From Dictyophora rubrovolvata (taxonomy: Eukaryota; Basidiomycota; Agaricomycetes; Phallales; Phallaceae), in the NCBI GenBank assembly GCA_029959195.1, contig CP114125.1:806001-870000 (forward strand): a stretch of 64,000 nt of DNA, given 5' to 3'. This document shows, in pieces, positions 4,699-41,240 of the stretch (within the stretch, counting starts at the first letter, position 1; each line of letters opens with the position of its first letter). Under the pieces are notes generated by a model, which had not been told where the DNA came from, did no database searches, and saw only the letters and a program-made list of their open reading frames with translations. Made by a program: the position numbers and the translations under genes.

Positions 4699-7580
4699 TT
4701 ACTCCGCTATGGCAGACAGTTTTCTCTTCTTTGTGGCGGGTTCGACAGCGATATGCTTAACAAGCTCTGATGATCCTTTCATAAGCTCTATTTCAGGGGG
4801 TTTCCGTATTTCGTTCTCTTGCGCTGCATCATCTTTTGGCCATGGTTCATTCTCCAGAAAAGAGTGAAAGAGATAGATCATCCCCTCCGACGTTTCTATA
4901 AACTCCAATTTCTCTTTATGCTCTGCCATGGGCTCTGTTTTGCGGGCTAAATACTTGACCTTAACCCTGTTGGTCACATCAATGTAACGAATGGCAACGG
5001 CCGTTTTGGTCTCCAGTAGCAAATAGTGAAGCGTTGGGTTTGCAGTGTCGATCTTGGCATTTAAAAGAATGTGCTCCGTTTTCAAATACGACTCCTTCGC
5101 TTCTCCGCCTACTCGATTGCGCCCGACCCGATAATTTGCATCAAAAATGTTACGCATGTGGAAGTACAAAGCTTCGGGCGAGAAGGCAACTTTAGTGTAG
5201 CGGAAAGCGACCCATGTCAAGACATGCACAAATGACTCAAGGTCATCTTGGAGAACGTGTGGCAAGCTTTGAGAAGGATCTGCTAGTAAACGTGCGGCTG
5301 CAAATTGCCACGTTCCCTTGAAGCACATATTAGCATGAAGGATAGACAATGGTGAAAAACAAAACTCACCGTTCTTTCTTTCGCAGGAGGAGACTGATCA
5401 TCTTTAGATTTAGCCATATCCCAATCCACGAGAAGTGCCGCCCGGTTTCCTTCTTCATCAGCTTCACCCATCATAATATTCCCTACACTAATGTCCCTGT
5501 GTAAAATCCCAGCCTCTTTGTACGCTGAAGCATGCGCTAGATACTTCTTAGTCAATTATTAATTTACCGAAATGTGACTATATAATTACCTTGTAATGCC
5601 TGATACATGATCGTCGCTAATTCTTTCGTTGATGAAAACTCTGTCAGTGGTGTTCCCACTTCTTTGAGGATAAGCCGATAATGTTGAAAACTGCGAAGTC
5701 CTTGCGGCGCTTTCTGGGCCCACGATGGGTCTTCCTCGCATAGCTTTTGCACGATGGTCTCCTGATCTTGAATGTCTAGCCATCGTAAAACGCTCGGAAT
5801 ATAAGGCACTTTCTTTTCATGGAGCTTAGCATAAAAGGTATGCTCCTGAGGGCGGCCAAGAACTCTCCAAGTATCTTTCAGAAACACTTTCTTAGCTTGT
5901 CCTTTCAGCGTCATCAATTCTGAGTAAGAATATGCGACAAAGCCTCGAGTTGATCGTCCAAACGGAGACGTCCCGCCCATATAGGTCAATTGTTCCGCAA
6001 CGTACAAACTGTCCGATCCAGAGGCGGACGTGGTCGTTAACATTACCAGCCTAGCGTCTTTTGCAAATACCCGTGCACGGCGAACGACATCTAGTTCTTT
6101 TTGGCGCAAGAGACGTGCGGTTGGATCATATCCTCGTTCTTCTGCGCTCGCTTTGTTGTATCGACCCAAGAATTCTGCAAAGAGACCGTTCGTCAGATGG
6201 AATCGTTCCGTAACGACCACCCCAGCATTGTCCCAATATAACAACCTTGCGTGTTGTTTAAAGACCAGCATGGAGAATATATGCGTTCGAAACTGCGCAG
6301 ATTTTTGTGCAGTTGCATATGATGTGATTTGACCTAAAGTGTCTTTTCCTTGCAACGTAAGTTTTGTAATATCAGCCTCAAAGGGGTTTGAAATTCCTAA
6401 TATCTCATCATCATCATCATCTTCTGTTTCTTCTTCTCCTTCTTCGGTATCTTCATCTCGACCCTCGTCTTCATCTTCCTCGTTCTCATCATCTCCCTCG
6501 TGATCGTGATCGTCGTCGTGCGCACAGTCTGGTTCTCCAACCATCAGCTCGCGGGTCTTCATATCCATCCCATCACCTCTATCCGCAGGCTTAGGGTATT
6601 TGTAAGACGATGGTTCAAGCCCATTACTATCGATAAATGCGTCATCATTGAGACTGATCTTGAACTCTGCCATCAATTCGACGGCAGAGATTCCCCTCAT
6701 CCCTAACTTCGCCCATTTCTTGTCGTAAAAACAAACATCGGGTTTTACAGTTATATTATGAAAATCTTTGAACACTTTGTCGTGTGTATCATATGGAGGG
6801 AAATTAGGACATAGATCTTTCACTGCGTCAATCTGTCCGTCGTTGAGTGATATATACGAAATCGTCATCTTAAATACACTTACGAAGACAGGATATAAAT
6901 CCTTTTCTACCGTACACGCCGCCATTTCTTCGATTTTCTTTTTAAATTTGTTTCGCCGTGCTTTAGAAACAAATTCTTTTTGTCGTCGATTCGGCATGAA
7001 GGTGTTGAGAAACGTTTCCAATGGCATCGGGCCGAGAATATGATCCTCCGCTTCTTCCGCCATGGCAGTCATTCTGAAATTTCTATAGACATGACCAGAT
7101 GTGCATGGATGGTCCTGTGATGTCTTCTTGACTAGTGGCGTTAACTGAATTTGAGGTGCAGGATCTCTCGCCTGAGGTTGTCTGGGTGGGGTTTGGGGGG
7201 GAATTGGAGCTTGTTGAGTCTGATGCGAACGTAGAGTGCGCGATGTCGAAGGGTGTGAAGATGAAGAGTCGCTGGTTTTGGGTGGCATTAACGAATACTT
7301 TCAAAAGGCAAACAGTAGGAAACGACAAGCAAAAACACGCGCTTGTCACTTTATATGTCACGCGTTTCGGCTTTCGTGATGGACACCGGGGCTACAATAA
7401 GTCCCTTGTGTGGACACGGACTGTAATTCTGAATCCACGAATAGATTTGTGCAGTCATGCTCAACGTTAAGTTTTTTTGACGTTTAGCCCAAAAGCTCGT
7501 ATCATCGGTGCACGCTGGCTGACTATCTATCTCACTTTGAAAACCGACGTATTAGTATCTGGAGATACCGATAATTCTTG
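4690..7580 (-). repeat. FunK1 duplication unit, copy A (gene plus promoter)
   Basis: Homology with the plus-strand unit at about 38240-41240 covers the whole gene and at least 290 bp upstream. Shared upstream pieces include a promoter segment with GAAACGCGTGACATA followed by GCGCGTGTTTTT. Further out, a stretch at 7528-7575 matches 38245-38290 in the opposite orientation. The duplicated block therefore included its promoter, and the copies lie inverted about 31 kb apart. Confidence 0.8.
4699..7288 (-). CDS. FunK1-type fungal protein kinase, copy A
   Basis: This is a fungus-specific FunK1 kinase. The C-terminal half has the catalytic loop HRDISVGNIM, the metal-binding LLVDWDMAKS (DWD in place of DFG, usual in this family) and GTWQFAAARLL. 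The N-terminal part carries a variable Ser/Pro-rich leader, then the conserved block MAEEAEDHILGPMPLETFL and an acidic Asp/Glu stretch. Translation starts at 7288 and ends at 4699 (SAIAE). Introns: 6833-6883 (51 nt, in frame if retained), one after MYQALQ near 5540-5580, and one after KERT near 5340-5390. A further 57-nt segment (7115-7171) may be a GC-AG intron matching an intron in copy B. Substrates are unknown. FunK1 families are greatly expanded in mushrooms. It forms an inverted duplicate with the gene at 38680-41234, upstream region included. Confidence 0.88.
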
Positions 7581-14689: not shown

Positions 14690-17600
14690 TCAAGAAGCGG
14701 GAGGAGCTAACGAAGAGGATTCCTTATGGAGCTCTTCTCGACTTCCAGGTGGAGTCGGCAACCCACTCGCATCGGCACCAGAACCAGACAATGGTGATGA
14801 CGATGAAACCGACGCATCAATCACAACTTTCCTCTCTCTCCTCTCCAGCCCTCTCGTAGGCGACGCAGGTCTCGTAACAGCAGGCGTACCAGGCGCACTA
14901 CGATTATGCATCAAATGAGCCTTAATCAAATGTCCCGCCGCAAGCGCACTCATGAGACTCAATTCTCCAGCCATAACAGCCGCAGCCACAATTCGTGCCA
15001 GTTGTTGTGCATTCGCACCTGGCGCGGTCGGATGTGCACCTCGTACGTTTAAGAATTCGAGAACGCTTTGTTGTGGGGCGAGAACGGTTCCACCACCGAC
15101 TGTTCCGACTTCGATGGAAGGCATTGTGACGGTTATTAGCAAGTCTTGATTGTTATTTGTCCTGAGAGCATAAGAGAGAAATAAGTATTATTTCATAAAC
15201 ACAAAAAAATTAAAACAAGAAAGAAACTCACGCCTCCATCATAGTCATACAATTCGAACTCTCAACGTTCTGCGCAGGATCTTGCCCGGTAGCCAAAAAC
15301 AACGCAGTAACAATATTGGCAGCATGGGCATTAAACCCACCAACCGAACCAGCCATAGCGCTGCCCACCAAATTCTTCTTAATATTCAACTTCACCAAAC
15401 CCTCCACGGTGGTCTTCAAAACATTTCTGACAACTCTCCCGGGAACGACAGCTTCAGCAACAACACTCTTCCCGCGTCCTTCAATCCAATTGATAGCAGC
15501 AGGTTTCTTATCCGTGCAATAATTACCGGACAATGCCAGAATCTGCATTTCGGGGAACCGGACTTGAACAGCTTCCAAAGCTTTCTCCACACCCTTCGAA
15601 ATCATATTCATTCCCATCGCATCACCCGTAGTCGTCACGAATCGAATAAACATAGTCCGTCCAGACAACGTGCACTTCAAACTCGATATCCGAGCGAACC
15701 GACTCGTACTCTCAAACGCTTCGCGCACGACCTGTCCCCCACTTGCAGATTCGATCCAGGCTTTGGCTGCTGCAGCGCTGACGATACTAGGGAATTCAAC
15801 AGCAGGACCGCGAGACATGCCGTCTTTCACTACAACGGTCGTAACACCTCCACCGGCGTTCAACGCCTTGCAACCTCTCGAAGTAGAAGCGACGAGTGTA
15901 CCTTCTGCTGTAGCCATCGGAATATGATATGAACGCCCGTCGATGGTCAAAGGACCGGCGATACCAAGCGGAAGTGGAATATACCCGACAACATTTTCGC
16001 AGCATGCACCTAGAACGCGGGAATAATCGTAATCCTTCATAGGAACTAACGAATGCTCAAGCGTTTTCGTATCCGAAGCACGAGCTGCAAAAAAAAAAAA
16101 AAACTCGGTAAATAAATTCAAGAGCTCGTGAAAACAACTCACAAATAACAGCCCGACGGATTTTAACAGCTCTTTCTAAATCACCAAGAACCTTTTCAAG
16201 CGCATACGGAGCAATCTTGCCATTCTGTGTCAACAAAACGATCTCTTCATCGCTCAAATGTTTAACGGCATCAGAACCAGACCCGAAAATGGTCAAAATC
16301 TCTTCATAAGGCCTCACAGGACCGGTGGGCGAAGGGGGGACAACGGCAGTAGTATTTATGGCAGTGGAAGGATTGTTACTAGAGGCCGGAAGAACGAACC
16401 CGTACTTCTTTTCTTTATCTGGTGAAGCCGATCTTGAGAACTCGGGAGTGGGCAACGCTATCGAAGGAACGATAGTAGCAGTGCTCGTCGTCGTCGTCGT
16501 CGTCGTAATCGAAACTGGAGGAGCCTGCACCACCTGAGCTGAAACCACACGAACGGGGGCAGATTGATCTGTCTCCACAGGTACCGAAAGACTAAATCCA
16601 CCATTCGGAGGAAGACGAGGAGAAGGCGTATGAATTTTGACTTTGCCACTTGTTGTATTATTACTTTTCTTCTTCTCCTCCTCTTTTTCTTCATCTTCGT
16701 CGTTAGCCTCGACGAGAACGACCTTCCTTCCTTTCATAACCTTCTTCTCCAACACTCTCTCCCGTTCTTGTTGCCGTAACTGCACAACCTGGGCACGAGA
16801 CGTAGTAGCACTAAGCCCTTTCAAAAGATATCCGTTCAAAAACACACTCAAAGCGAGAGCGACGACGATCCATTTGGATAAAGCCGGATCGCGGAGAATC
16901 GACGTCCAGAACGTTGAAACGGGCGATTGAGGAGCACGAGATGAAATGGATGATCGGGACAGATGCTGGTTGGACTGCGATGCACCGCGAGAAGAGGCGT
17001 ATGATCCCGTGAAAACGGAACCAAAGTAATCCAACATGCCACTAATAGGTCCGACGGGATTAGAAGCGGAAGCAGACGCAGACGCAAGTCCGGCGGCGGC
17101 GGCGTGAGCTTTCAAAGAAGGGGGTATAACAACAGCAATTCCCAAAGGCGGACCAACTTTAACAACCATGTGTCCTCCTTGCCCTTGTGCCTCTTCCACA
17201 AAAAGCCCGAACGCTTGCATCACAGAATCCAACGCCTCAAAATCGACTTTGCGGGAATAAACATCCTTGCCGTATCCAGGTTCGTCGTCCATATCAGCTC
17301 GCGAAACGCCAATACCACGTGATGACGATAATGATGATGACACCAAACTCGCGGAAGCGGAAGATTTCCCAATCGCACGACCCCTGTATCGAGCGAGTGC
17401 AACATCGGGAGCGAGCGTAGACAACAAATTAAGCGAGTGGAGGGTCAAGAAGGAAACAATGAGCAGCAACTTGAGTCTTCCAGCTGGATTTTCCAATTTA
17501 GGTCTCGGTTCAGCATCAGGTTCGGAAATGGTGTGTGTGGTAGTGACGGTGGGGCCGAAAGATGTCAAATCTGCGGTCGATACATTTCTGGAAGAGCGTC

Positions 17601-18989: not shown

Positions 18990-21684
18990 CGTATATAATA
19001 GGTGGAGGAGAGACTAATGGGGATTAAAGGGAAGAGAGAAAGGTGTCGAACGATTTGTGCGCGTTCTTTTTATTTTTTGTTGTGTTGTGTTACGATTTTT
19101 GGGGGAAAAGTGTGTCACTCTTTGGTCTCTTGTTGTTATACCCATGGGAATCGTATGGGCGCCCATGGGCGAGGATCCTTAGAACGTTAGACGCCCACGC
19201 GGTGCAAAAGAACAACAGCCTGCGATATCTCCGCCCGACAGTGTGCCAGGCTCAAAGCCAAGCTCTAGTTAGCTCGTGATTGGCACAAGCACAGCGCCAC
19301 GAACGACACGAGCACATTGTCTCGGTCATAAACTACAATTGTGTCCGGAAGAACGGATCTGAGAACCCCCGGGTGCTTAATCTGGCCGACCTCCGTTTGA
19401 ACGTGCATCAAAGAGGATTTACGTCGGCGTTTCATACTTACTTCAAGTAAAACCCTAAACTTGAATCTCTCGGTCGATGGACCCCTTCCCCGCTTATTCA
19501 TTTCCCGCATGGACGATTTTGCGGGCGTTCTATGGCAAGATTCTCTCAGCTGCTATTTCAGCAAAGCAGGATAAAAAAAAAACACGGTGATACTATCATC
19601 ATGATAGCCGTTATCACTCACTATTGTAGCTCTCTTATCGTAAACTCACTTCAATCCTCAGTTTGCCAAAAATAAAATACAAATTACAATTGCAACATTT
19701 CACCATTATACAAATCGCCCGATTTTTACGCATCCCCAGTGTGACGTTTTTTAATTAGCGTCTTCAATTACGCCTCCGTAAATCCCAGTCCCAGTCCGAT
19801 TTCCTTCGAACTAGAGCCTATGCCGTCATTCGAGATGCGCCCAGATTATCCTATGCACGCATTAATGTGCCAGAGATGAAGCTACTCAAATAGTACTATA
19901 TGACACAGGGTTATAGGATTAGCAGGCACCCATCAAAGCCAGCTTAGTCCCGAGCAGACTTGGTCTTCTGATATGAGGTCACAACTTTGGCCATAGCCAC
20001 CATGATATCGATATCAACACCATCCACGAGTTATTTTGCTCCTTTAAAACGGTGTCCATCCTCACTTTTGACTTGCGAGGTGATAATAAATTTTGTAATA
20101 TATTCAAATCGCAAACCCAATACGTACAGAATGTCAGAGTAGACCGTTTCGCTGTCTGCTTCGATTTCAGTGGAACCGTAGCCGGTGAAACGCCTAGCAA
20201 ATAATAATACTCGAAGCGAAATGACAAAAAATCGTTTTTGCTATCCGTTTCACTCACTGCCGCTCATTTTTTTTCAACCAGGGAGAAGCATTTTAAAGCG
20301 AAATTTTATAAAATTATTTCTTTGATAAATTATGTAAATGTTTGTTCAAAGCAACTGTACAGCTGCTCTGCGAAGTTTGCATCAGTCCCTAGACGGTTCA
20401 GCTGCTTAATAGCAAAGACCCCCGACAAAATGGGTCTGTTGTCTCTTGCCGCCGCGACAGTTCAAGGTCATCGTCACGTCCAAGGTCATCGTAGGCAGAA
20501 AAACCTACGCTGTGCTTGATGACTTGTGTCCAGTTTCACTCCACAGCCCTCCCTTCTCAACCAGTTCCTTAGGCAGTTGACAATAGACCATTGGTGGTAT
20601 TACCATATTACGCTGTCGGAAGCCGAGGGAAGATTTAATAAATGAATAAAAAAACCCTTTGTGGTCGGCACATCCCCGCAGCAAAAAATATGACAGTGAT
20701 AATCGATAACGTATGACTCGGAGCCCATCAGGATAGAGCTTGATATCAAGGATGGTAATTTTCCCAATACGATCGAGCGATGCGAATTTGCATAGATTTC
20801 AAATTCTGGTTCGGTATCGCTATCATGATAGCCATGACTGGCTCCCTAAGTACCAAGAAAAGAAAATTCCAGCAATCTCCGTGACAAAACTGTTCGACAC
20901 ACAAAGAGTAACACAGCTTGTATATGTAAATCCGGTCAACATTCAATACCGAATCGAAGGGGGGTTGCATAGGGAGGGATCTTGCGTTTCGAGGATCCCG
21001 TAAGCCGTAGGGACGGCATCCGGACGAGATTGCAGTTGTATGGACGCAGGAAAAATTGTGAGAGAGACGGATGTAGGCGCGGATGGGGATAGAAGATAAA
21101 GGGCGTTCGGTAATAGTATGAGCGATATTGCATATGAAAAAACGGGGAACGGTGGAGCCTTCTTTATAATCGTCTGGACTGAACTTGAAAGGCCGGTATA
21201 CATAAATATAACCCGTTTTGTTTTTTTTTTCAAATCTGTTATCTACATGTGGGAAAACTCCGCCGGCGAGCTACGAAGAGAATAGTTTGAAGCAAGTCGC
21301 AGTAGTTTGTCTCATTGTCATTGTCTGAGAAAGATTCGGAATTTGGGGCAGATGAGACTGTCATGGCATAATATCCCCTCCTGAAGTTGGATTGAGTGTC
21401 GGTTTCCCTACTAGTCCCAAAACAAGAGGTTGACTAAAAGGGATCCGCGGAGGCTTAAACCTTTGTCTCGATACTAGTTGGTGACACTGGGAACAGGAGG
21501 CTGCTTGAAAGGGGGTGATGAATCGAGTGCATATGGTGAGATCTCACTCCAAGATGTAGCTGAAAAAACTCGAATTTGCCGTTGACCACAGTGGCAAGCG
21601 GGTGATCCGTTTTGGTTGGGAATGGCACTGTGGAGATTTGACGTAAAACTGAATTCAGATTATTGAAACGTTTAGCGGGGGAGT
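18990..21684. other. Long intergenic region, no gene recognised
   Basis: About 2.7 kb upstream of HMGR and up to the left end of the mobile element. No frame resembles a known protein. I see scattered short motifs, for example TATCATGATAG-like palindromes near 19597 and 20820, and CGCCCATGGGCG near 19160, but no convincing array or gene. It may hold HMGR regulatory sequence and old decayed repeats. Confidence 0.5.
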
Positions 21685-22095
21685 GGCACCGGGAGTTATG
21701 GGTCGATTGTTCAGATCGATATCTCAGATCCAGCCGCTTAGGTGAATGGACCCCAGTCACATCACATTATATACTTCAATAAAATATATTATACGGCATC
21801 ATTTTCTTTTCGCTAAGTTCAAAAATAAAACTGAATGAAGTAAGCTGCGTCTTCAAAATTATGGCGGGAACGGGAATCGAACGAAGAAGCTTTAAAAAAG
21901 ACATACAGCCAGCAGTATGCACTAGGCCACAGAGCACACATAGATTTGCTACAGTTGAAACGCTATGATGGTTAGTTACTGAAACAATAGAGAAAGTCTT
22001 TTACAATAAAACCACTGCGAATGCGATGCATCAATTAGTGTATTTACTACTTGTACTACTTGTATTAATCGAGCATATGAATTAAAAGCTTGAGT
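21685..22095 (-). repeat. Left inverted repeat of the element
   Basis: The reverse complement aligns along its full length with 27020-27477. Anchors include CTTTTAATTCATA, ATTGTTTCAGTA, CATAGCGTTT, GGCTTACTTCAT / AGCTTACTTCAT and GACTGGGGTCCAT, then GGCTGGATCTGAGATATCGA. It contains a tRNA-like pair of Pol III boxes (TGGCCTAGTGCA and GTTCGATTCC) on the minus strand around 21868-21930. Confidence 0.8.
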
Positions 22096-22150
22096 AAAAT
22101 TTAAGGGTATCCTAAGCTATGAAATAGTGTAAGTACGCTATAGGGAAAAC

Positions 22151-23266
22151 TCAGTCTGAGCCGTAGTTTGCGTATTCAATGCAGTCTTCTTTCAAATGAT
22201 TCTCCATAAGGTCTTCAACAACCCCAGATCCACAGTAAGGGCAAAATTCGATCTTTGTGGAGTCGTCATCATGACCTGCAGGTGCTTCTTCATAGATCTC
22301 CATCGGTTTGTGTGTTCGGGTGCTGGAATTGGCAGAACGGTGTTGCCTCTGGGAAGTATATTGACGTTTCTTTCCTTCAGATAATTTAACACCGGCGAGA
22401 ATTCCTTCAAGTGTGCCAGGTAAATCTGGGCTTGGGCTTCTTTCGACTTTTACTTTGATGCGTGGCCTTAAAGTGTATGCTAGATAGAATTAGAATAACA
22501 ATTAATTTCCATTGATTATATAAAAAAAAACTAAAGCTTACGGGTACTATATTCTCGACGAACTTCTCGTTTATTGCGACGAATTCGGCTGAGTTGGTTT
22601 CTCTCTGGAGCGGGAATGGCTAGGGCCTTTATAATTGGCTGAAGCGCTGTTGTGAAATTTAGCGGGGGAACAGGAATGATGAAAAGATCAACTTACCGCC
22701 ATTTGCTGTGTAAGGATATCCTGCGAGTTCAGTTGCCGTTTCATATGTTTTATTCAAAGGAACTGTTTTGAAGTTCAGTGAGGGATTGAAAACATATGCC
22801 AGAAAATGCTTACCATAGAAACCGCAATCATAGCACTCGAGAAACGGTCCAAGTTGGTCCTGCGTGAATGTTGCAAACTTTGGTCGTTCGGCACACAATG
22901 AACACCAGCAGCACCAGCCCAGTCTTCGTGCTCTAGCATATGTTGCAAGTGCCGTTACAGCCACTGCGTGGGAGTACCGTCCGGTGTGAAGTGGACTGAA
23001 AAAATCGAAAATTAAATAAGAACTAAGGATAAAAGGAAGACATACTACGGTGTTTCTTCAGCTTCCTTTTTGAAAGGATTGCAAGTGACGATGTTGGGCG
23101 ACTCAGCTTGTAGTTCCATGGCAGAAACATAAAGTGTGCGAAGAGCGGGGTCAAGAAAGGAAAGAGGCAGCCTCAAGGCACGCTGGGAGGCTCTCCAACG
23201 TCTTGTGGTGTTTCGATTAGAAAAAAAGGAATGCGCAGAGTGAGAGTGGGCGATTGCATATTGCAT
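22151..23266 (-). CDS. Uncharacterised Cys-rich, zinc-finger-like protein of the element
   Basis: I do not recognise a family. Introns after EAEETP (joins to PLHTGRYSHAVAV), after CGFY (51 nt, frame-neutral), after TANG (joins to ALQPIIKAL) and after REYST (joins to PYTLRPRIK) give an intact frame ending YANYGSD at 22151. Visible features: a basic Arg-rich N-terminus, a Cys cluster CCWCSLC followed about 20 residues later by CYDC (four or more potential zinc ligands), a basic segment RIRRNKREVRREY and a C-terminal FCPYCGSG...HLKEDC (C2HC-type finger). Start may be 23266 or an upstream ATG at 23398. Its position inside the inverted repeats, divergent from the transposase across a 553-bp shared promoter, suggests a transposon accessory protein, perhaps DNA-binding. 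That role is inference. Confidence 0.6.
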
Positions 23267-23819
23267 TGTCAATGAGAAAGGATTGTGGAGAATGGGAATG
23301 AGGATGAAGTGCTGAGTTAGCTGCGGTGCCCATGCCCACCTTATATATGCCCTCAAATTGTCTCGGGAAGAAATAAATAAAGACAGGGTCCTATTCATAA
23401 AACACGAGGTAAATAAATTGAGTGAAAATCAAACGATAATTTATGTTTTTTCACACTCAAAAAACACTGGGGACGCCCCATCCCGGAGGATCATTTGAGT
23501 CAACGGAGAAGAAAAATACCAAAAAAAGAAATTATTAATTATCTACCTCCAATTTTTAGAGCTTCGTCATCTCTTTATTTTTGAGCCAACCAATTGTGGC
23601 GGTCTTATATGCAATAGGGAGACAGAGTCATGTGCTCCGCGTTACCCCAGCGCACAGAAACTTGAAGAAATGAATTAGTTAGCCGTTATATGCCTTTGCA
23701 AACAAACAAAGAAAAATACGACGCGTTTTTTGCTTAAAAACCTCGACTTTTTTGCCTAAAGTCCTTGACGTTTTTCCCTGAATTTCGACATCTTACCAAA
23801 GTCCAACATTCCTTTCCTT

Positions 23820-26800
23820 ATGTCACCTCATCCCTCTGATTTTCTTTGTCCTTCACTCGTTGAAATTTCTACTTTTAATGTTTCTGTTAATTCGTCTTTT
23901 CTCTGCAATTCCTATGTCTCACCACCTCCTGTTTTCTTCATGCCAGTCCAACGTCTGCTTGGATCGGGGCGAGTAACACGGAAAACATATGTCGATGCCG
24001 TTGTAAAGCATTTACCCGGCGCGATAGTCGAAACACCAGTCTCTGGGGCTCAAATGGGCGTAGCTATTGCACACATATTTCACGTAGATCCTGACAATTT
24101 TGTTCACCCAAAAGATAACCTTCAATATTCGCTCACCGGTGGTAGGCACAATGGAACAAAAGATGTTACGTGCTTTTTACTTCGCAACAAAGATACAGGA
24201 ATGCCTGTTAAATGCGAGAAAACGCATTATACATGTAAGTGATTCTGAATTTATAACTGAACTCACTCACTAATATTCTGGGAATTAGGCGGCTCTACAA
24301 AAAAATGCTCTTTCAATCCAACGGGTAACGGAGGGCCCTTCACCTCAATGGTATATGATACCTGGGGCGAAGTTTTTATGAAGACACTCGGTTTTTATTG
24401 TGCGTTGCAGGACCACGGATGCTCATTTTCCAGCCTTCATCCCGAATGTCTGGACGAAGACCCAGATAGCGACAGTGAATCCCAGATTGTCAATCCAATG
24501 CCGGACAATCTTGTTCTTGTGAAAAAGGATTGTCGTTTGCCACGCAAAAATCAAAAGTGTAGAGGAGAACTGATAATCTGCAGTGATATATATGGCCATT
24601 TATTTATTCGGTGAGCATTTTAAGATACATAATACGTGTAACTTAGCACTAAAAACTGCATTAAGTTGCGAACACTATTCGAAAGGGAGGCGCAACCATC
24701 TGCGGCTTCGAAATCTTGGCGAGTACAACATCGACTACCTTGTTGCACTCTTCACGGCCAACACCAGGAAGATATGGGAGTTCGAATGTAGGGCGGCGGA
24801 CGAAGGCTATGGTCCGTTGCTACCTTGCAATATTACAGTTGTCACGCGGGCACAGAAAGGACTTTGTCGTGAGTTGAAAATAAAAATATTTTCCACCCTT
24901 TGTATGCTAATGGCGATGATAGCCCATTGGCATCGGGATTCCCAGGGTATCTTACAACGCGGTGAAATGATCCCAACAGAAGACTGTTCCACTCGTTTTG
25001 ACATGTTCACGCCAAACGACCTCCACCAGTGTCCATTTGTTGTGATCGTTTTGACAAACCCACACTCACATACCCTGCCACAGCCTACAAAAACTCCTGC
25101 AACAATACGTGCAATTTTCGAATCCTTACTCACACCGCTTGACTGGAGATTGGCTGATGCCACACCCCGCCGCATTTTGCTGGATCACTCATTTATGCAA
25201 AATTTGCGGGATATATTAGGGTGGAAGAATCATCAGGACCCAGGCCTTGGTGATCTCCATCCTTCCTTAGCTAATTACGATCACGCTGCGCGATTAATTG
25301 ACAACTTACGAGACGAGAAGTACCCGGCGGGTACTGGGCTGCAAGGTAGGCACCCGCGTCGTATACACATCTGAGCTTTTATTTACTTAAATCTTAGGTG
25401 CCAAATATTTGTTAGAAGAACACTTAAAATTACCCACCGATAAGCGGTACCTTCGACACATCGAAACATACAGTGATTCCAAGGAGGGAAGCTTCACTAT
25501 TATTATCTGCATGTTTCAACAAATGAGTGAGCTTTTACTTGGAGCGTCACGGTTAACCATCGACACTTCCTTCAAACGTCTCCAAAATTGGCAAGAATTT
25601 GAGATGGAGGCTTGGTTTTCAGAGTATGACCGCTGTAAGAACTATCATAGTAAACAAATTATGCTCTATGTTTACTCATATTTTTTTACTATAGCTGTGG
25701 TCGTTGCGCGAGCTATTACGACTTCAGAGAGTGCAATCGCTCATTATCAACTATTCAAGCTTATATTCACTATCGTCGAGGCTGACACTGGCCAAGCCAT
25801 CCGATTCCGACATATTCACGGGTATGGAGTTGATACTGTCACAGCCGACGGACACTGCGGTCAAGCTCTGGGTGAGTTTGGAACAAATTTTGTTACTATG
25901 TATCTGACATCTTTTTTCTGGAAAGGATTGGGACTGTATTGTCAAGAAATATCCAAGAACATACATGGGTACTGTTCAATCGAATGGACGCGACCCTTAT
26001 ATGCGCTCAGTCCAAGAGAGCACCTGACGCGTTTTTATCGGTATTGCCTTGCACACTACTCACGCAATGTTTCAAAGCTCAGAGGACATGTCGATGAGTC
26101 TATACTCTCTGCAATGATGAGTTTAGCCAGTGCAGAGCCTTTACCAGATTTTAGCACAACGCTAGCTTATATTTGCTCTGGTGGGAAAAAAGCCGTTGGT
26201 AAGTAGGGTTCTGTGATGTTTGTTTATCAGTTACTAACAATATTTATTAGATTGGTTGAAGGATAAGCAACCCGTTGAAGGGTTTTATCCTTTAGCGGCA
26301 ATATACTGGCCTGAAAGCAGAATACCGTTGAATAGCTGGAGAGCGGCATTTTCAACTACAAACGGTAATGAACAAGCCCATAGAAATATCAACAGAGATG
26401 GGACTATGCTTACTCTGCTCGCTGGGATTATGCGCGGCCTGCAATTTGACTCGCGAGCCCTTGGAAATCTGAAGTTCTTGATTAATGATTCTATTCAGCC
26501 GCGCGACCGGAGCTCAACCCATTTTCAAAGGCTATTAAGAGGGATAAGAGTGAAATGTAATATTTTATTTGTTACTTTATTTTTCTATATTCTGAAAATG
26601 TTTAGCTTCGTCCCAGCAGAAGATTGTACAAGGAAAGGACGCAGAAATTTCGAAACTGCTGGAGAAGACCAAACAGGTTCAGGCCTCCATAGACTCAGTG
26701 GCGAATTCTCTCAAACGCTCTAGTGAAAATAACAAGTCTGAAAGAGAATGTAAACGACTGAAGAAGTTTACAGAAGACCTCAAAGATGTGAACGAGCGAT

Positions 26801-27034
26801 TGAGCCAACTCATACCTCAGGGTTCAGGTTCAGTGCTGCCCACCGGGCTGCAACAAGCTTCAATAAAGGTTTTTTTTCTTTCTTTGTCTAATCTTAAAAT
26901 ATTCCAACACTTTTTAGACATATATTACAGATGAATTCGAATTATTCATGCCAGGTCCTTCCAACGGATTCTCAGCGGCACCTCCACCTTCTGCACATGA
27001 ATCCATACCCTTTGGATTTTATCCCAACTTTTAA
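23820..27034 (+). CDS. DDE-type transposase-like protein (possibly MULE-related), intact
   Basis: About ten exons join cleanly into a protein of roughly 850 residues. The N-terminal region is Cys-rich (CEKTHYTCGSTKKCSFNPTG, then RCEHYSKGRRNH), reminiscent of the WRKY/GCM-like zinc modules seen in MULE transposases. A possible catalytic triad follows: LTIDTSFKRL (Asp), TVTADGHCGQALG (Asp) and NGNEQAHRNINRDG (Glu/His). The C-terminus has a Lys/Glu coiled-coil (about 26620-26820) and ends IPFGFYPNF at 27034, where the right inverted repeat begins. Introns: 24235-24289, 24612-24664, one near 24869-24920, others near 25346-25398, 25635-25695, 25871-25926, 26200-26250, 26556-26605 and 26869-26919. 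No stop or frameshift is needed, so it may still encode an active enzyme. The superfamily is uncertain; a domesticated gene is the alternative. Confidence 0.65.
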
Positions 27035-27477
27035 TTCATACAATTGATTAATACAGGTCTAAAATTTCCGGACTTTACTTAAATACACTCATTAATGCAG
27101 ATGTCGCGTTCGACGTGGTTTTAGTGTCAAAAACTCAGTAGCATTGTTTCAGTAGATAACTTTCATAGCGTTTGAAATGTAGGGAACTAAAGTGTGATCG
27201 CATGCCTTAGTGGTCATACCCCGTGCAATTGTGATTTTTTTAACCCCCTTGGTTCGAATCCTGTTGCCGCTATATTTCTGGAAAGACGCTCAAACCTTTT
27301 TACTTTTTGGCTTACTTCATCCAGCTTTAGGCGAACTTTAGGCGAAAAAAATAACACTAGCCTATATATTTACAAAAAGTATAAATTACACTACGTGACT
27401 GGGGTCCATGCACCTAAGCGGCTGGATCTGAGATATCGATCTGAACAATCGACTGATCACTCTGGCACCGGTGCCCA
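27020..27477 (+). repeat. Right inverted repeat of the element
   Basis: Partner of 21685-22095. It overlaps the last codons of the transposase gene (TTTTAATTCATA is shared). It contains a tRNA-like segment with box A-like TGCCTTAGTGG and a perfect box B GGTTCGAATCC (27251-27261). The outer end, GACTGGGGTCCATG through GATCTGAACAATCGAC, is nearly identical to the left copy. Confidence 0.8.
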
Positions 27478-28635
27478 GTGTCAAAATGAATTGTGTATGT
27501 ATGTACCAGCGTCATTAAAGAACGACGGTCTGGCACTTGAGCCATTTGATATGACGGGAATATACGGAGGTATCAAGGTGAAATCTCTCACTGTGGATCT
27601 GCCAGGGGAAAACACGATTTCGTAGAATTTTTTGGAGTAAGCGCGCTGTGCCTTGAAAACATGGATTGGACGAATGGGATGAGTGTTATACACGGGGTAG
27701 ATCAAGGCACATATCATTCTGGTTTCGCCTGACGGAACGAAGCGAAGCGAGATGGATATTTAGTTGCTCGAACTCGGAATGGAAGGGACTGACTGGCTTT
27801 GGGCGGACGCGTATTGTAACGAGGCAACAGGAGGCTGGCAACAAGGAACGAAGAAGTGTGCACGGTCATTATCGCTGATGTCGTTCAGACTTGAGACCAC
27901 ATGGCATATTAATTTCCTGGCCAGAAAGAAGTTGATTTGGGAGATACAAATTTAAAAAAAAGAGAGTCATATGATATGATAGGGTGGCCATGATAGTAGA
28001 GACATTTGCATCAGGTGGCTGAGGGGGGAGAGTATGGTAAATGGGAGATTGAGTGGATATAGGAGTGTATATACATACGTATGGGATGCTGTATTTGGGC
28101 TGTGCATGTGCCTGGGCAGAGCTAGAGATCCGGAGTGATGCCGGCGGAGGAGTGTGAGGGAGTGTACCCCTGTGTACCCCCGTGTACCCCCGTGTATCGT
28201 GTAGTCTCTGGGCCTCCCTTCTTGAGACAATTAAGGGGTCGAAGCTGCAAAATGAGTGCAAGATTGGTCCGCACGCCCTGGTTCCTGAATGCGTGTCGAA
28301 AGAGAGTGAATGAGTCGGAGGGTATGCAGTGAGCTGTGCCGTCTCGGTGCCGAATTCACCCAGGAGGCTTTTTGTTTTGTCAGATTTTTTTTTTTAACCC
28401 CAAGGGCCGTAGTCTGCACTGCGTGAGAATTAGCGCATGAAAACGGGCGACCCAATCCCAAAAGTATCATGGACTTGATTAGTCGTATACCCTATCTGGC
28501 GAGGTGTCCACTCTTCGCTTTTAATTCTCCGTCGATAACTCCCTCTTGCTTCAGTCACCGTACTCCATGCCTCGTCTGTACTAATACCCCTCTAATACCC
28601 CCCTGCCCCACACTCACCCATTCCTATCCCTCGCT
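27478..28635. other. Intergenic region upstream of the G-alpha gene
   Basis: About 1.16 kb without a recognisable gene. It includes a short tandem repeat (28163-28198, units of about GTGTACCCC). The last ~100 bp before 28636 are C-rich, as in many fungal 5' UTRs. Confidence 0.5.
28163..28198. repeat. Short tandem repeat, GTGTACCCC units
   Basis: Three to four imperfect copies of a 9-10 nt unit, GTGTACCCC(C/T), occur in the G-alpha upstream region. Confidence 0.7.
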
Positions 28636-30735
28636 ATGCCCGCCCGTACCAATCACGACTCTACTGACGATCCGCTAACCCTCGCCCTCAACGCCTCCAT
28701 CGCCCACGAATCCGACACCGAGCGAGGTCTCCGTCTCAAGAAGGAATCAGAGGCAAGAACCGTCTCAGAAACAATCGACGAACTCATCAAACAAGAAAAG
28801 GCTTTATTGAAGAAGCAACGTCCTGTCAAAATTCTTCTACTCGGTAAGCTCATCATACACCCAAGAACTACATACATAATACGTATTCCCTGACGTCTTT
28901 CTTCTAGGGCAATCCGAATCCGGTACATTCCTCATTATTTTCTCTGTGCCTGACTCGGCAGATATTTATTTACTTCCAGGAAAATCAACAGCTCTCAAAA
29001 ACTTTCAAATTATACATACCCCACAAGTACGCCCGAATAGTTCGTTCCCCTTCACTTTCCTCTCTCATCTTCTTCTTCTTCTTCTTCTTCTTCTTCTTCT
29101 TCAAACAAACAGGCATGGGCAGCAGAACGAATATCATGGCGAACAGTCGTTCAACTCAACCTCATTCGCTCCATTCGAATCATCCTAGAAAAAATCCTCG
29201 ATTCCTCATCCTCCACATCAACATCAGCATCCCGCAGACACAGTTTACCTTTATCCATCAGCCCAGCTCTCGATCCCGATCATCACGACAGGTCACACAG
29301 CCCTCCGCCTCCACCCATCTCCTTCCGACAACGATACTATGAACTCGAAGAGCGTTTGCGGCCTTTACTAGCTGCAGAAAAATCTTTAATTCAACGTCTT
29401 GCTCCAGATAAAGAATCAGGCGAACCGACTAAAAACCATCTTTCGCCATCTCCGTCTCCATCTTCCCCGCATTCCGCTCAATTTCATCATATTTCATACA
29501 GCAATGGCTACCCTTATTATCATGTCCACTCTCACTCACACTCATACCCGCACTCTCACTCTAACTCTCACTCATACTCGCACTCACACTCACCGAAACA
29601 CCACGAAATCTCAGTAAACGCGCTCTCGTCATGGAAAAACGCGCTTTCGAAACTCGTCAATGTCAACGGCACCGAAGGAACCTCTGCCAGCCCATCCGAT
29701 TCTTCTTCATTATCATCTCCGACAATACTCAAAGACACCATTTCAGAACTCCTCTGTTCGATGAAAGAAGACATCAGATCACTCTGGACAGACCCCGAAG
29801 TGCGTTCAGTAATTCAAAAACGAAAGCTCAAAGTCGAAGATATATCAGGCTTGTCAGTCCTTTTTCCCTCCCCCTTTTTTTCCCCACTACCTTATACTCA
29901 ACCCTTCTTTTTGAAATCAACCAGCTTCTTAGATGATCTAGACCGTATAGCATGTCAAGACTACAGTCCATCAGACGACGACATCCTCCGCGCCCGTCTC
30001 AAAACAGTCGGCGTAACAGAATACAAATTCACCCGCGAAACTCCAAACATGTTCGGATCCGACTGGCGGATATACGACGTGGGCGGGAGCAGGACCCAAA
30101 GAGCCGCGTGGGCTCCATATTTCCAAGACGTCGATGCTATCATTTTTTTGGCCCCTATAAGCGGGTTCGATCAGGTTCTCGTGGAAGATTCGAGTGTGAA
30201 CCGGTTGGAAGATACAGTGCAGTTGTGGAAGCAGGTGTGCAGTCATCCGCTGTTGAGCAGGTGTAATGTTATTTTGTTTATGAATAAGACGGATTTGATG
30301 GCGAAGAAGTTGGAGGCTGGGGTTAGATTGAGTCGCTATATTCCTTCGTTTGGCGATCGGTCTAATGATTTTAAGACTGCTTCTTCTTGTGAGTGTTTTT
30401 GTTTGGAGTATTTATTTTCTGCGGCTGAAAACGCACTTTGTATAAGACTTGCAGCGGAAGTTTCAGGTTATTTTTGATAAAACTTCTCCAGAACGACGAC
30501 CTTTTTATTGTCATATGACATCTCTTACCGTACGTTCTCCAGGGGTTTTTTTTTTTTAATACTAGACACAGACATCTCATCTCTCTTTTTGGTAGGATAT
30601 GCACGCCTCTGCTAAAGTTATTGCTTCGGGTACGTACAAATCTACATACAAAGTCCCGTTATGACAAACACGCTTTTGTTTACAGTCGCCGATTTGATTT
30701 TTCAAACTTATTTACGGGATAGGAAAATGATTTAG
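28636..30735 (+). CDS. Divergent G-protein alpha subunit with long His/Ser-rich insert
   Basis: Spliced exons give a Ras-like/G-alpha fold: P-loop GQSESGKST, switch I RLKTVGVTEYKF, switch II DVGGSRTQRAAW, guanine-base motif FMNKTDL and a C-terminal TSLTDMHASAKVIASV. The protein is roughly 550 residues against about 350 for a standard G-alpha. A large insertion in the helical domain contains a run alternating His, Ser, Tyr and Pro (about 29500-29600). The catalytic Gln of DVGGQ is replaced by Ser (codon 30088-30090). The C-terminal TCAT-like loop is also altered (TSLT). Introns lie within the P-loop (two), after HTPQ (contains a (CTT)n run), after EDISG, after TASS and two near the 3' end. The N-terminus lacks the usual Met-Gly myristoylation site. 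Receptor coupling cannot be inferred. Confidence 0.88.
29069..29102. repeat. (CTT)n microsatellite in G-alpha intron
   Basis: About eleven CTT triplets lie inside the intron between HTPQ and AWAAER and form part of its polypyrimidine region. Confidence 0.8.
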
Positions 30736-38240: not shown

Positions 38241-41240
38241 ATAGCTATCTCCGGATACTAATGTGTTGGTTTTCAAAATGAGATGGTCACCCAACGTACG
38301 CGAAATTACAGACTCCAAATAGATGGGGCGCATACAGACATGCTCAGAAAACACGAATATTGCACGGACACGGACACAAACGCGGGAGGAAAACGCGTAT
38401 TGTTTATTAGTAATTGTTTGGTAACTGTGTAAGCTACTATATATCGAGCCACCAAATTTAACACACTGATGGTACGAGTCTTTGGTATAACGTCAAAGTT
38501 CAACGTTGATCATGACTGCACAAGTCTGTTCGTTGATCCAAAATTACAGTTCGTGCCCACAGGACTTTAATGTAAGTAGTCCCGGCGTCCATTGCGGAGG
38601 CTGAAACGCGTGACATACTAAATATATAGTGGCAAGCGCGTGTTTTTACTTTTCGTTTCCCACTGCTGCCTATTGGTTCATGCCAACGAAAACCGGCCAG
38701 TCTATTTCTACACGGCCTTCGACATCAAGCACTCCCCGTTCACGTCAGATTCCTCAGGTTCCGCCTCAAAAGCGAACCCCAGGTGAGCGATCACGCCCCT
38801 TAGTCTTAGCTAACGTCACTGGTTGAAAACACAGCAAAGGAATTTCCCTGTACATCTGGTCATGTTTATAGAAACGTCAGAATGGCCGCCATGGCGGAAG
38901 AGGCAGAAGGTCATATTCTCGGTCCGATGCCATTGAAAACGTTTCTCGAAACCTTCTTGCCCAAACGACGGCGGGATGACTTGGTTTCCAAAGTACGGCG
39001 AAGAGAATTCAAAGAGAAAATCAAAAAAATGGTGTTGTGTGGAATAGAAGAGGATATGTATCCTATTTTTGTAAGTAATTGGTTTGATGCTTTGACATAT
39101 CACTTAGTAACAACGAACAGGTCAAGGCAGTTGAAGATTTATGTCCTAACTTCCCTCCATATGACACACACGACAAAGCGTTCAAGGTTTTTCACAATAT
39201 AGCCGTGAAACCCGATGTTTGTTTTTACGATAAAAAATGGGCGAAGCTAGAAAGGAGGGGAATCTCCGCTGTCGAATTAATGGCAGAATTCAAAATCAGT
39301 CTCAACGATGATGCTTTTATCAATAGTGATGGCCTTGAACCATCGCCCGACAGATATTTTATGCCTGAAGGAAACCGACGACGTGAGATTGAGGATATCG
39401 ATGCTCCCACCCACGAGCCAATGTTTCGAGAGACTGACTATGTGCACGACGAAGATGGCGGGGGAGATGTTGAAAATAAGGAGGAAGAAGACGAAGGTCG
39501 AGATGAAGACCGCGAGGAAGAAGGCAACGGGATGTTGGAATATTCAAACCCCTTTGAGGCTGACATTACCGAACTCACAGTGCAGGCAAGAGATACTTTG
39601 GGTCAAATCACATCGTATGCAACCGCACAAAAATCTGCGCAGTTTCGAACGCATATATTCTCCATGCTGGTCTTTAAACAACACGCAAGGTTGTTATATT
39701 GGGACAATGCTGGGGTGGTCGTTACGGAACGATTCCATCTGACGAACGGTCTCTTTGCAGAATTCTTGGGTCGATACAACAAAGCGAGCGCAGAAGAACG
39801 AGGATATGATCCAACCGCACGTCTCTTGCACAAAAAAGAACTAGATGCCGTTCGGGCTACACGGGTATTCGCAGAAGACGCCAGGCTAGTGATGTTAACG
39901 ACCATGTCCACTTCTGAACCGGATAATTGGTACGTTGCGGAACAATCGATTTATATGGGCGGGACGTCTCAGTTTGGACGATCGACTCGAGGCTTTGTCG
40001 CATATTCTCACTCGGAACTGACGACGCCGAAGGGACAAGCTAAAAAAGTGTTTTTGAAAGACACTTGGAGAGCTCTTGACCGCCCGGAGGAACATGCGTT
40101 TTATGCGGAACTTGATAATAATAATGTGCCTTACATTCCATCCGTTTTACGATGGCTGGATATCCAAGGTCAGAGGACCATCGTGCCAAAGCTATGCGAG
40201 GAAGACCCGTTTTGGGCCCAAAAAGCGCCGCAAAGACTTCGCGGTTTTCAACATTATCGGCTTATCCTCAAAGAAGTGGGAACACCACTGACAGAGTTTT
40301 CATCAACGAAAGAATTAGCGACGATCATGTATCAGGCATTACAAGGTAATTATATAGTCACATTGCGGTAAATTAATAATTGACTAAGGAGTATCTAGCG
40401 CATGATTTAGCGTACACAAAGGCTAAAATATTACACAGGGACATCAGCGTAGGAAATATCATGATGAATGAAGCAAATGGAGAAGGGAATCGGACGGCAC
40501 TTCTCGTTGATTGGGATATGGCCAAATCTGAAGACGATCATTCTCCTTCTGCACAACGAAAAACGGTGAGCTTTTCTTTTACTGTTGTTTATTCTTCATG
40601 CTATATGTGCTTCAAGGGAACGTGGCAATTTGCAGCCGCACGTTTACTAACAGATCCTTCTCCAAGCTTGACACATGTTCTCCAAGATGATCTTGAATCT
40701 TTTGTGCATGTCTTGACATGGATCGCTTTCCGCTACACTAAAGTTGCCTTCTCACCTGAAGCTTTATACTTCCACATGCGCAACATTTTTGATGGGAATT
40801 ATCGGGTCGGGCGCAATCGAGTAGGAGGAAGCACGAAGAAGTCGTATTTGAAAACAGATGACACTCTTTTAGAGGCCAAGATCGACACTGCAAACCCAGC
40901 GCTTCACTATTTACTATTACACACCAGAATAGTCGTTGCCGTTCGTTACATTGATGTGTCCGACAGGGTTGAAAGCATATTTTTTCCCCCCACAGAAAGC
41001 TTCATGACACAGCATAAAGAGAAAATGGAGTTAATAAAAACTTCCAACGGGATCATCGATATATTTCGCACTTATTTGGAGGAAGAAGCATGGCCAGAAA
41101 ATGACGCAGCGCAAGAGAACCCAATGGTGAAACCTCTTGAAATGGAGCTTATGAAAGAATCATCAGAGCTTGTAAAGGATATCGCTGTCGAACCCGCCAC
41201 AAAGAAGAGAAAACTGTCTGCCATAACGGAGTAATGATTA
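38241..41240 (+). repeat. FunK1 duplication unit, copy B
   Basis: Inverted partner of about 4690-7580. Similarity includes the upstream stretch CTCCGGATACTAATG (near 38250), ATGACTGCACAAGTCTGTTC (near 38512) and the proximal promoter GAAACGCGTGACATA. It then runs through all exons and introns to the stop. Confidence 0.8.
38680..41234 (+). CDS. FunK1-type fungal protein kinase, copy B
   Basis: Paralogue of the minus-strand gene at 4699-7288, with the same motifs: MAEEAEGHILGPMPLKTFL, VKPDVCFYDKKWAKL, an acidic stretch, HRDISVGNIM, LLVDWDMAKS and GTWQFAAARLL. It ends KKRKLSAITE. The start at 38680 (MPTKTGQ) is homologous to that of copy A. Four introns: 38783-38834 (GT-AG, joins QKRTP to AKEFPCTSG), 39070-39120, one after MYQALQ near 40347-40386, and one after QRKT near 40566-40617. 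The first intron resolves what looks like a frameshift in the disordered leader. Two tracts match copy A almost perfectly: 39625-39829 without any mismatch, and about 40244-40386 with one mismatch. The gene appears intact. Function beyond kinase fold is unknown. Confidence 0.88.

Follow-up and report, generated by a model that had tools for sequence, protein, structure and literature searches.

A probable two-gene MULE-like transposon with long terminal inverted repeats in Dictyophora rubrovolvata

We analysed a 64,000-nucleotide stretch of the Dictyophora rubrovolvata genome (contig CP114125.1, positions 806,001 to 870,000), referred to here as the window; all coordinates are those of the window. 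The interval 21693-27462 is probably a complete and structurally intact class II transposon of the MULE type, with a gene for a predicted 911-aa DDE transposase and a second element gene for a 300-aa protein. The evidence comes from the inverted repeats at its ends, the direct repeat directly outside them, the structure of the two genes and the comparison with elements described in the literature.

Terminal inverted repeats and target-site duplication

The repeat-bounded interval 21693-27462 is 5770 bp in length and its termini are GAG..CTC. The features at its two ends are as follows.

21693..22110, + strand: left terminal inverted repeat; outer ~60 nt strongly conserved, inner edge soft
27005..27462, - strand: right terminal inverted repeat; holds the last codons of the transposase, inner edge soft
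21684..21692, no strand: target-site duplication, left copy TGGCACCGG, directly outside the left arm
27463..27471, no strand: target-site duplication, right copy TGGCACCGG, directly outside the right arm

In a blastn comparison, 21693-22110 pairs with 27462-27005 at 68.7% identity over 463 columns (E 7.5e-40). The arms are 418 and 458 bp in length by this alignment, as expected of a MULE with long terminal inverted repeats. A repeat search of the window found the outer arms (21693-21760 and 27395-27462) to be 94% complementary, with collinear inner pieces in addition. When the two arms were aligned to each other with gaps, 333 of the 478 columns were identical (~69%) and 404 columns were ungapped. 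Identity is highest at the outer end (56/60 in the outermost 60 columns) and is lower in the next 30 columns (20/30). A conserved outer end with a drifted remainder is the pattern that binding at the ends would be expected to leave. The local alignment score of the arms was 363, and none of 275 control windows taken from the same sequence exceeded 71; a second scoring set-up gave 361, with 68 as the highest value among 200 shuffles. Toward the inside the arms have a soft edge, and local scoring can extend the alignment inward to 22390 and 26723. No second copy of the element was found by blastn within the 64-kb window. A reading made from the sequence alone (the sequence-only reading) had noted two inverted repeats of about 400 bp, and the identity and scores given above indicate that both are real. 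That reading set the bounds at 21685-27477, which proved to be too wide: the true ends lie 8 nt (left) and 15 nt (right) further in, as fixed by the 9-bp direct repeat.

The direct repeat TGGCACCGG matches at 9/9 positions on both sides and exactly abuts the arm ends, which had been computed beforehand. Matches of 9 bases occurred by chance in 8 of 200000 random position pairs. At the exact spacing of the element, one 9-bp match was found among 58212 window positions, and it is the TGGCACCGG pair itself. With ~10 nt of freedom at the ends in both directions, a match of at least 9 bp arose in 12 of 3000 random pairs. The duplication is strong evidence mainly because the arm ends had fixed its place beforehand. 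Given a perfect 9-bp duplication at the arm ends, the interval and both of its genes therefore probably inserted as a single unit. The complete mobile unit with both genes that was proposed earlier thus gains support from a duplication that the proposal itself did not include. Mobility in this sense would be read from the scar of one past insertion at a single locus.

The two element genes

Two genes diverge from the middle of the element. Their exons were predicted by reading splice sites.

23820..27034, + strand: transposase gene, 10 exons, 911 aa (predicted model)
23820-24234, 24289-24610, 24666-24868, 24923-25345, 25398-25634, + strand: transposase exons 1-5
25695-25871, 25926-26198, 26251-26556, 26606-26868, 26918-27034, + strand: transposase exons 6-10
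22151..23266, - strand: Cys-rich gene, 5 exons, 300 aa (predicted model)
23266-23046, 22995-22814, 22762-22697, 22646-22542, 22479-22151, - strand: Cys-rich exons, encoding CCxC/CxxC and C2HC motifs
23267..23819, no strand: central intergenic region between the divergent ATGs; candidate bidirectional promoter by position

The transposase frame is joined across nine GT-AG introns of 49-60 nt and the Cys-rich frame across four GT-AG introns of 50-62 nt, both without an internal stop. The earlier call of two divergent, intact genes was confirmed in this form, with products of 911 aa and 300 aa. Where the transposase starts is uncertain, and Met41 is a possible start codon. Among 2000 shuffles of either CDS none was stop-free; this is a weak control, as introns had been picked by eye so that the frame stayed open. 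The genes were also said to stop at or next to the repeats, and they do: the last base of the transposase stop codon lies 30 nt within the right repeat and the Cys-rich stop sits 41 nt from the inner edge of the left repeat, inside the element. The gap from ATG to ATG is 553 bp and contains one TATATA (23342-23347), 76 nt before the Cys-rich start. It is plausible that this region is a candidate central promoter shared by the two genes.

A candidate catalytic triad was assigned by eye in the transposase at D510/D585/E724 (D-75-D-139-E). RYCLAH (C633 and H636) and W713 are also present; the distance from the second Asp (D2) to His is 51 residues, and W713 is found 11 residues before E724. A 25-aa MULE signature has been described that starts with D-x3-G and ends with [QR]-x-C-x2-H (PMC2725143). 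In the 911-aa protein both ends of the signature are present in order, the middle is not kept and the ends are further apart. When residues 501-780 were shuffled 20000 times, D-x3-G followed by [QR]xCxxH at 10-80 residues turned up in 54 of the shuffles; this wide spacing was allowed after the protein had been seen. In the N-terminal part of the protein there is a C...C...HxH arrangement (residues 335-363), which we take to resemble FLYWCH or WRKY-type fingers; Pfam did not recognise it.

Profile searches returned no transposase. In Pfam none was listed at a limit of E 10, a setting at which HMMER filters drop most matches above ~0.1. In NCBIfam, which was built for prokaryotes, none was found at E 10 with a 257-aa catalytic piece. 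The DDE-type transposase of the sequence-only reading is retained on the strength of motifs seen by eye, now placed at D510/D585/E724, and the profile side of that proposal found no counterpart: no MULE, hAT or KDZ profile was listed in Pfam at E 10. A sequence search of solved structures found no transposases, and the three chains that it returned were at chance level (best E 0.93). AlphaFold2 was run without relatives on 25400-26203, using the window's own translation with introns 5 and 6 kept as in-frame inserts; the mean pLDDT was 39.0, too poor for a fold search. Relatives were also sought in virus and prokaryote collections with six short peptides of a single sequence, a design whose result says little. 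For the catalytic half, two stretches in viral contigs matched a pattern and none was confirmed. For the protein up to the end of the eighth exon, 16 stretches in genome contigs were matched and again none was confirmed.

The Cys-rich protein contains CCWCSLC...CYDC (residues 102-131), C-x2-C-x11-H-x4-C (residues 271-291) and two basic stretches. It was assigned to no family at cut-off in Pfam or NCBIfam, where the only matches were to a zinc-ribbon and to DUF2387 below threshold and others at chance level. These zinc-ribbon and DUF2387 matches (E 0.0024 and 0.0042 on pieces, 0.008 and 0.035 on the whole protein) fell short of cut-off, and membership in the two families was rejected. In a sequence search of solved structures, four kinase chains were matched at chance level (best E 0.26). 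AlphaFold2 without relatives, run on most of the last Cys-rich exon, gave a mean pLDDT of 55.7, which is too poor for a fold search. Four stretches in viral contigs were matched with six short peptides of the single sequence and none was confirmed. From its motifs the product is taken as a putative zinc-binding protein outside the recognised families. By analogy it would most likely help the element, by binding the repeats or the transposase or by countering silencing. Vandal elements, MULEs of plants, encode a second protein that acts on their own silencing (PMC12730594).

Superfamily assignment

By its anatomy the element is best filed as MULE-like, as a divergent member and not by proven homology. 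It is filed in this way because a 9-bp duplication together with long repeats agrees with MULEs, and agrees less well with hAT, CACTA/Plavaka, Kyakuja and Zisupton elements. MULE duplications are given as 8-11 bp and MULE repeats as typically long, 14-500 bp (PMC6446971); a duplication of 9 bp falls in this range. Triad spacing and a Trp before the Glu agree with those of one MULE, Muta1. Duplications are given as 8 bp for Zisupton, 7 bp for Kyakuja (without inverted repeats) and 5-8 bp for hAT, and the CACTA/Plavaka group is described with a duplication of 2-5 bp, mostly CA..TG ends and C(2)C and H(3-4)H motifs (PMC12730594). Set against these, the element here has 9 bp and long repeats versus the 7 and 8 bp of these two KDZ groups, 9 bp versus 5-8 bp for hAT, and 9 bp with GAG..CTC termini versus 2-5 bp and mostly CA..TG for CACTA/EnSpm-Plavaka. 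The duplication and the triad spacing, along with repeats of this length, support the MULE-like class suggested by the sequence-only reading; no matching transposase profile was listed in Pfam or NCBIfam (limit E 10).

Comparison with known elements

The two-gene plan is already known in fungi from Mutyl, and the element extends a known kind and founds no new one. The earlier remark that a MULE-like transposase linked to its own zinc-finger partner would be unusual in fungi was overstated, since Mutyl, itself a fungal MULE, has two genes, the second of them antisense. In the published descriptions, Mutyl of Yarrowia lipolytica carries mutB antisense to the mutA transposase and makes a 9-10 bp duplication; the mutB product is of unknown function (PMC6446971, PMC5014426, PMC2725143). 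Compared by description, Mutyl differs in having imperfect 22-bp repeats, a length of 7413 bp and products of 459 and 1178 aa, versus repeats of ~420-460 bp, 5770 bp and products of 300 and 911 aa here. Hop of Fusarium oxysporum is another fungal MULE with a 9-bp duplication and an 836-aa transposase; it differs in its 99-bp repeats and its length of 3299 bp, and the transposase is the sole product named in these sources (PMC5014426, PMC2725143).

Muta1 of Aedes aegypti is an active MULE in which D214, D283, H307, W401 and E419 were shown to be important by mutation (PMC5225508). It resembles the element here in its triad spacing (D-69-D-136-E versus D-75-D-139-E), in CxxH and the Trp before the Glu, and in its long repeats and 8-9 bp duplications (PMC5225508). 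The distances inside the catalytic domain differ: D2 to His is 24 residues in Muta1 and 51 here, and Trp to Glu is 18 residues and 11, respectively (PMC5225508). In prokaryotic relatives C/D(2)H is placed 11-19 residues after D2 (PMC3942029). As described, Muta1 also differs in having one gene, 145-bp repeats and a recognised FLYWCH finger, whereas no such finger was recognised here (PMC5225508). In the Spectre MULEs of arthropods, which have inverted repeats, the transposase ORF is accompanied by one for a C2H2 zinc finger, and a complete aphid Spectre element couples the two ORFs (PMC6446971). They differ in their 8-bp duplication, arthropod hosts and shorter repeats, which are given as 74 bp in the text of the survey, while its table lists 76 bp and a single ORF (PMC6446971).

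The element is set apart by four features taken together: its repeats are long, its two genes diverge, the transposase coding sequence finishes within one of the repeats, and the transposase falls outside the current profiles. Maize MuDR, with mudrA and mudrB, also has two genes and long repeats. The MuDR genes are convergent with promoters in the repeats, whereas the genes here diverge from the middle. Elements of the maize MuDR group have 9-10 bp duplications where these are given (PMC6446971). In the table of the same 2019 survey, Basidiomycota are named in one subgroup only, which is Puccinia-labelled (PMC6446971). Among the matches listed from the open-licence literature, none was an Agaricomycete MULE with a zinc-finger partner. 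If the partner travels with the transposase, mushrooms would be a further lineage in which to ask about the role of the MULE second gene, next to Yarrowia (Mutyl), arthropods (Spectre) and plants. With exact ends and intact genes, the element offers a defined two-component system for tests in yeast of the kind made with Muta1. A transposase with MULE anatomy that falls outside the MULE profiles would also suggest that Agaricomycete MULEs are under-counted.

Proposed mechanism and alternative explanations

The sequence itself shows the repeats, the duplication, the two open spliced frames and the motifs; from these we infer transposase activity, MULE membership and a function for the partner, and current mobility would follow in the same way. 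In the proposed mechanism the 911-aa protein, as a DDE transposase, would bind each repeat at its outer ~60 bp, which are near-identical between the two, and excise the element through the D510/D585/E724 site. The element would then join a target staggered by 9 bp, and fill-in would leave TGGCACCGG at either end. A second element gene, the divergent one for the 300-aa zinc-finger-like protein, would be carried along.

It is possible, although we consider it the less expected outcome, that the MULE-type transposon is real and that the Cys-rich gene was captured from the host (Pack-MULE-like) or came in later as a nested arrival, in either case a passenger that plays no part in transposition. 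Acquisition of host gene fragments by MULEs is known (PMC6446971), and a captured gene would be in keeping with a Cys-rich protein that has no confirmed relative in viral contigs and no family at cut-off. The gene is intact with four GT-AG introns, however, and is not a fragment; it has the left repeat on one side and the central intergenic region on the other, and its C2HC and CCxC/CxxC motifs would suit a DNA- or protein-binding helper. All three points count against capture and are still compatible with it.

A DDE transposon of another superfamily found in mushrooms (KDZ, hAT or CACTA/Plavaka) is quite unlikely. It would agree with the absence of a listed MULE profile in Pfam at E 10, and CxxH and the Trp are common to hAT as well (PMC5225508). 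The profiles of KDZ, hAT and CACTA/Plavaka were likewise not listed in Pfam, though, and the 9-bp duplication, the long repeats and the 139 residues from D2 to Glu stand against the published traits of Zisupton, Kyakuja, CACTA/Plavaka and hAT. That the repeats are an unrelated inverted pair, the genes chance neighbours and the 9-bp repeat a coincidence is highly improbable and is disfavoured: the locus is single and the window holds no second copy, but the duplication is located exactly at the arm ends, the transposase reading frame terminates inside the right arm and the arm score of 363 is far above the control maximum of 71.

Pol III-like motifs in the repeats

Two pairs of motifs resembling the A box and B box were found in the arms.

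21874..21924, - strand: A-box/B-box-like motif (TAGTGCATAC ... GTTCGATTC), left repeat, outward-pointing; motif only
27208..27261, + strand: A-box/B-box-like motif (TAGTGGT ... GGTTCGAATCC), right repeat, outward-pointing; motif only

The pairs occupy matching places in both arms. For the exact B box GGTTCGANTCC the window has a single occurrence versus 0.11 expected, and at least one occurrence was found in 10 of 100 shuffles. The shorter GTTCGANTC occurs three times versus 2.66 expected; two of the three are at matching places in the arms, and these two are not independent because the arms are homologous. Searched with a loose A-plus-B pattern, the window yielded 12 rows, five of them (overlapping) in the arms and seven elsewhere. 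A tRNA origin of the repeat segment was considered and found no support from tRNA models: ARAGORN predicted no tRNA genes in the window, and Rfam gave no such match at E 5 (6001 bases) or at E 10 (201 bases per arm). The best Rfam match in the element, in the central region, was to a viral tRNA-like family at 20 bits versus a gathering threshold of 40 and was taken as chance. The A/B-box pair may be a worn SINE or tRNA piece absorbed into the repeat, or it may be due to chance. A more far-reaching proposal, which we regard as rather unlikely, is that the element represents a deeply diverged, mushroom-specific MULE lineage beyond the present profiles. Such a lineage would have an obligate two-module zinc-finger partner, a shared central promoter and outward Pol III-type promoters in both repeats, which could make repeat-derived RNA for or against silencing.

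Insertion site and flanking genes

An empty pre-insertion allele would read GAGTGGCACCGGTGCCC. The flanks joined with one copy of the duplication give GAGTGGCACCGGTGCCCAG. The joined empty site (21684-21692 plus 27472-27480) holds a perfect 12-bp palindrome, GGCACCGGTGCC; the window contains 23 perfect 12-bp palindromes in total. A preference for palindromic targets is possible, as judged from one insertion.

The sequence TGACACTGGG is found at 21482-21491 and 27474-27483, once on each strand of the window, and forms an inverted pair. In the joined flanks this pair spans 223 bp, and the first 20 bases are identical at 16/20 positions. The pair was considered as an older small element that served as the target and this was rejected, as no matching bases or duplication flank it. 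The host genes beside the element are HMG-CoA reductase on the left (15228-16142, - strand) and a G-protein alpha subunit on the right (29356-30477, + strand). Two similar long stretches of fungal-specific protein kinase genes, a gene type in keeping with a fungal source, are also present in the window, at 5564-7288 (- strand) and 39205-41234 (+ strand); the former was called by a match to Pfam Pkinase_fungal and the latter by eye from the ORF list.
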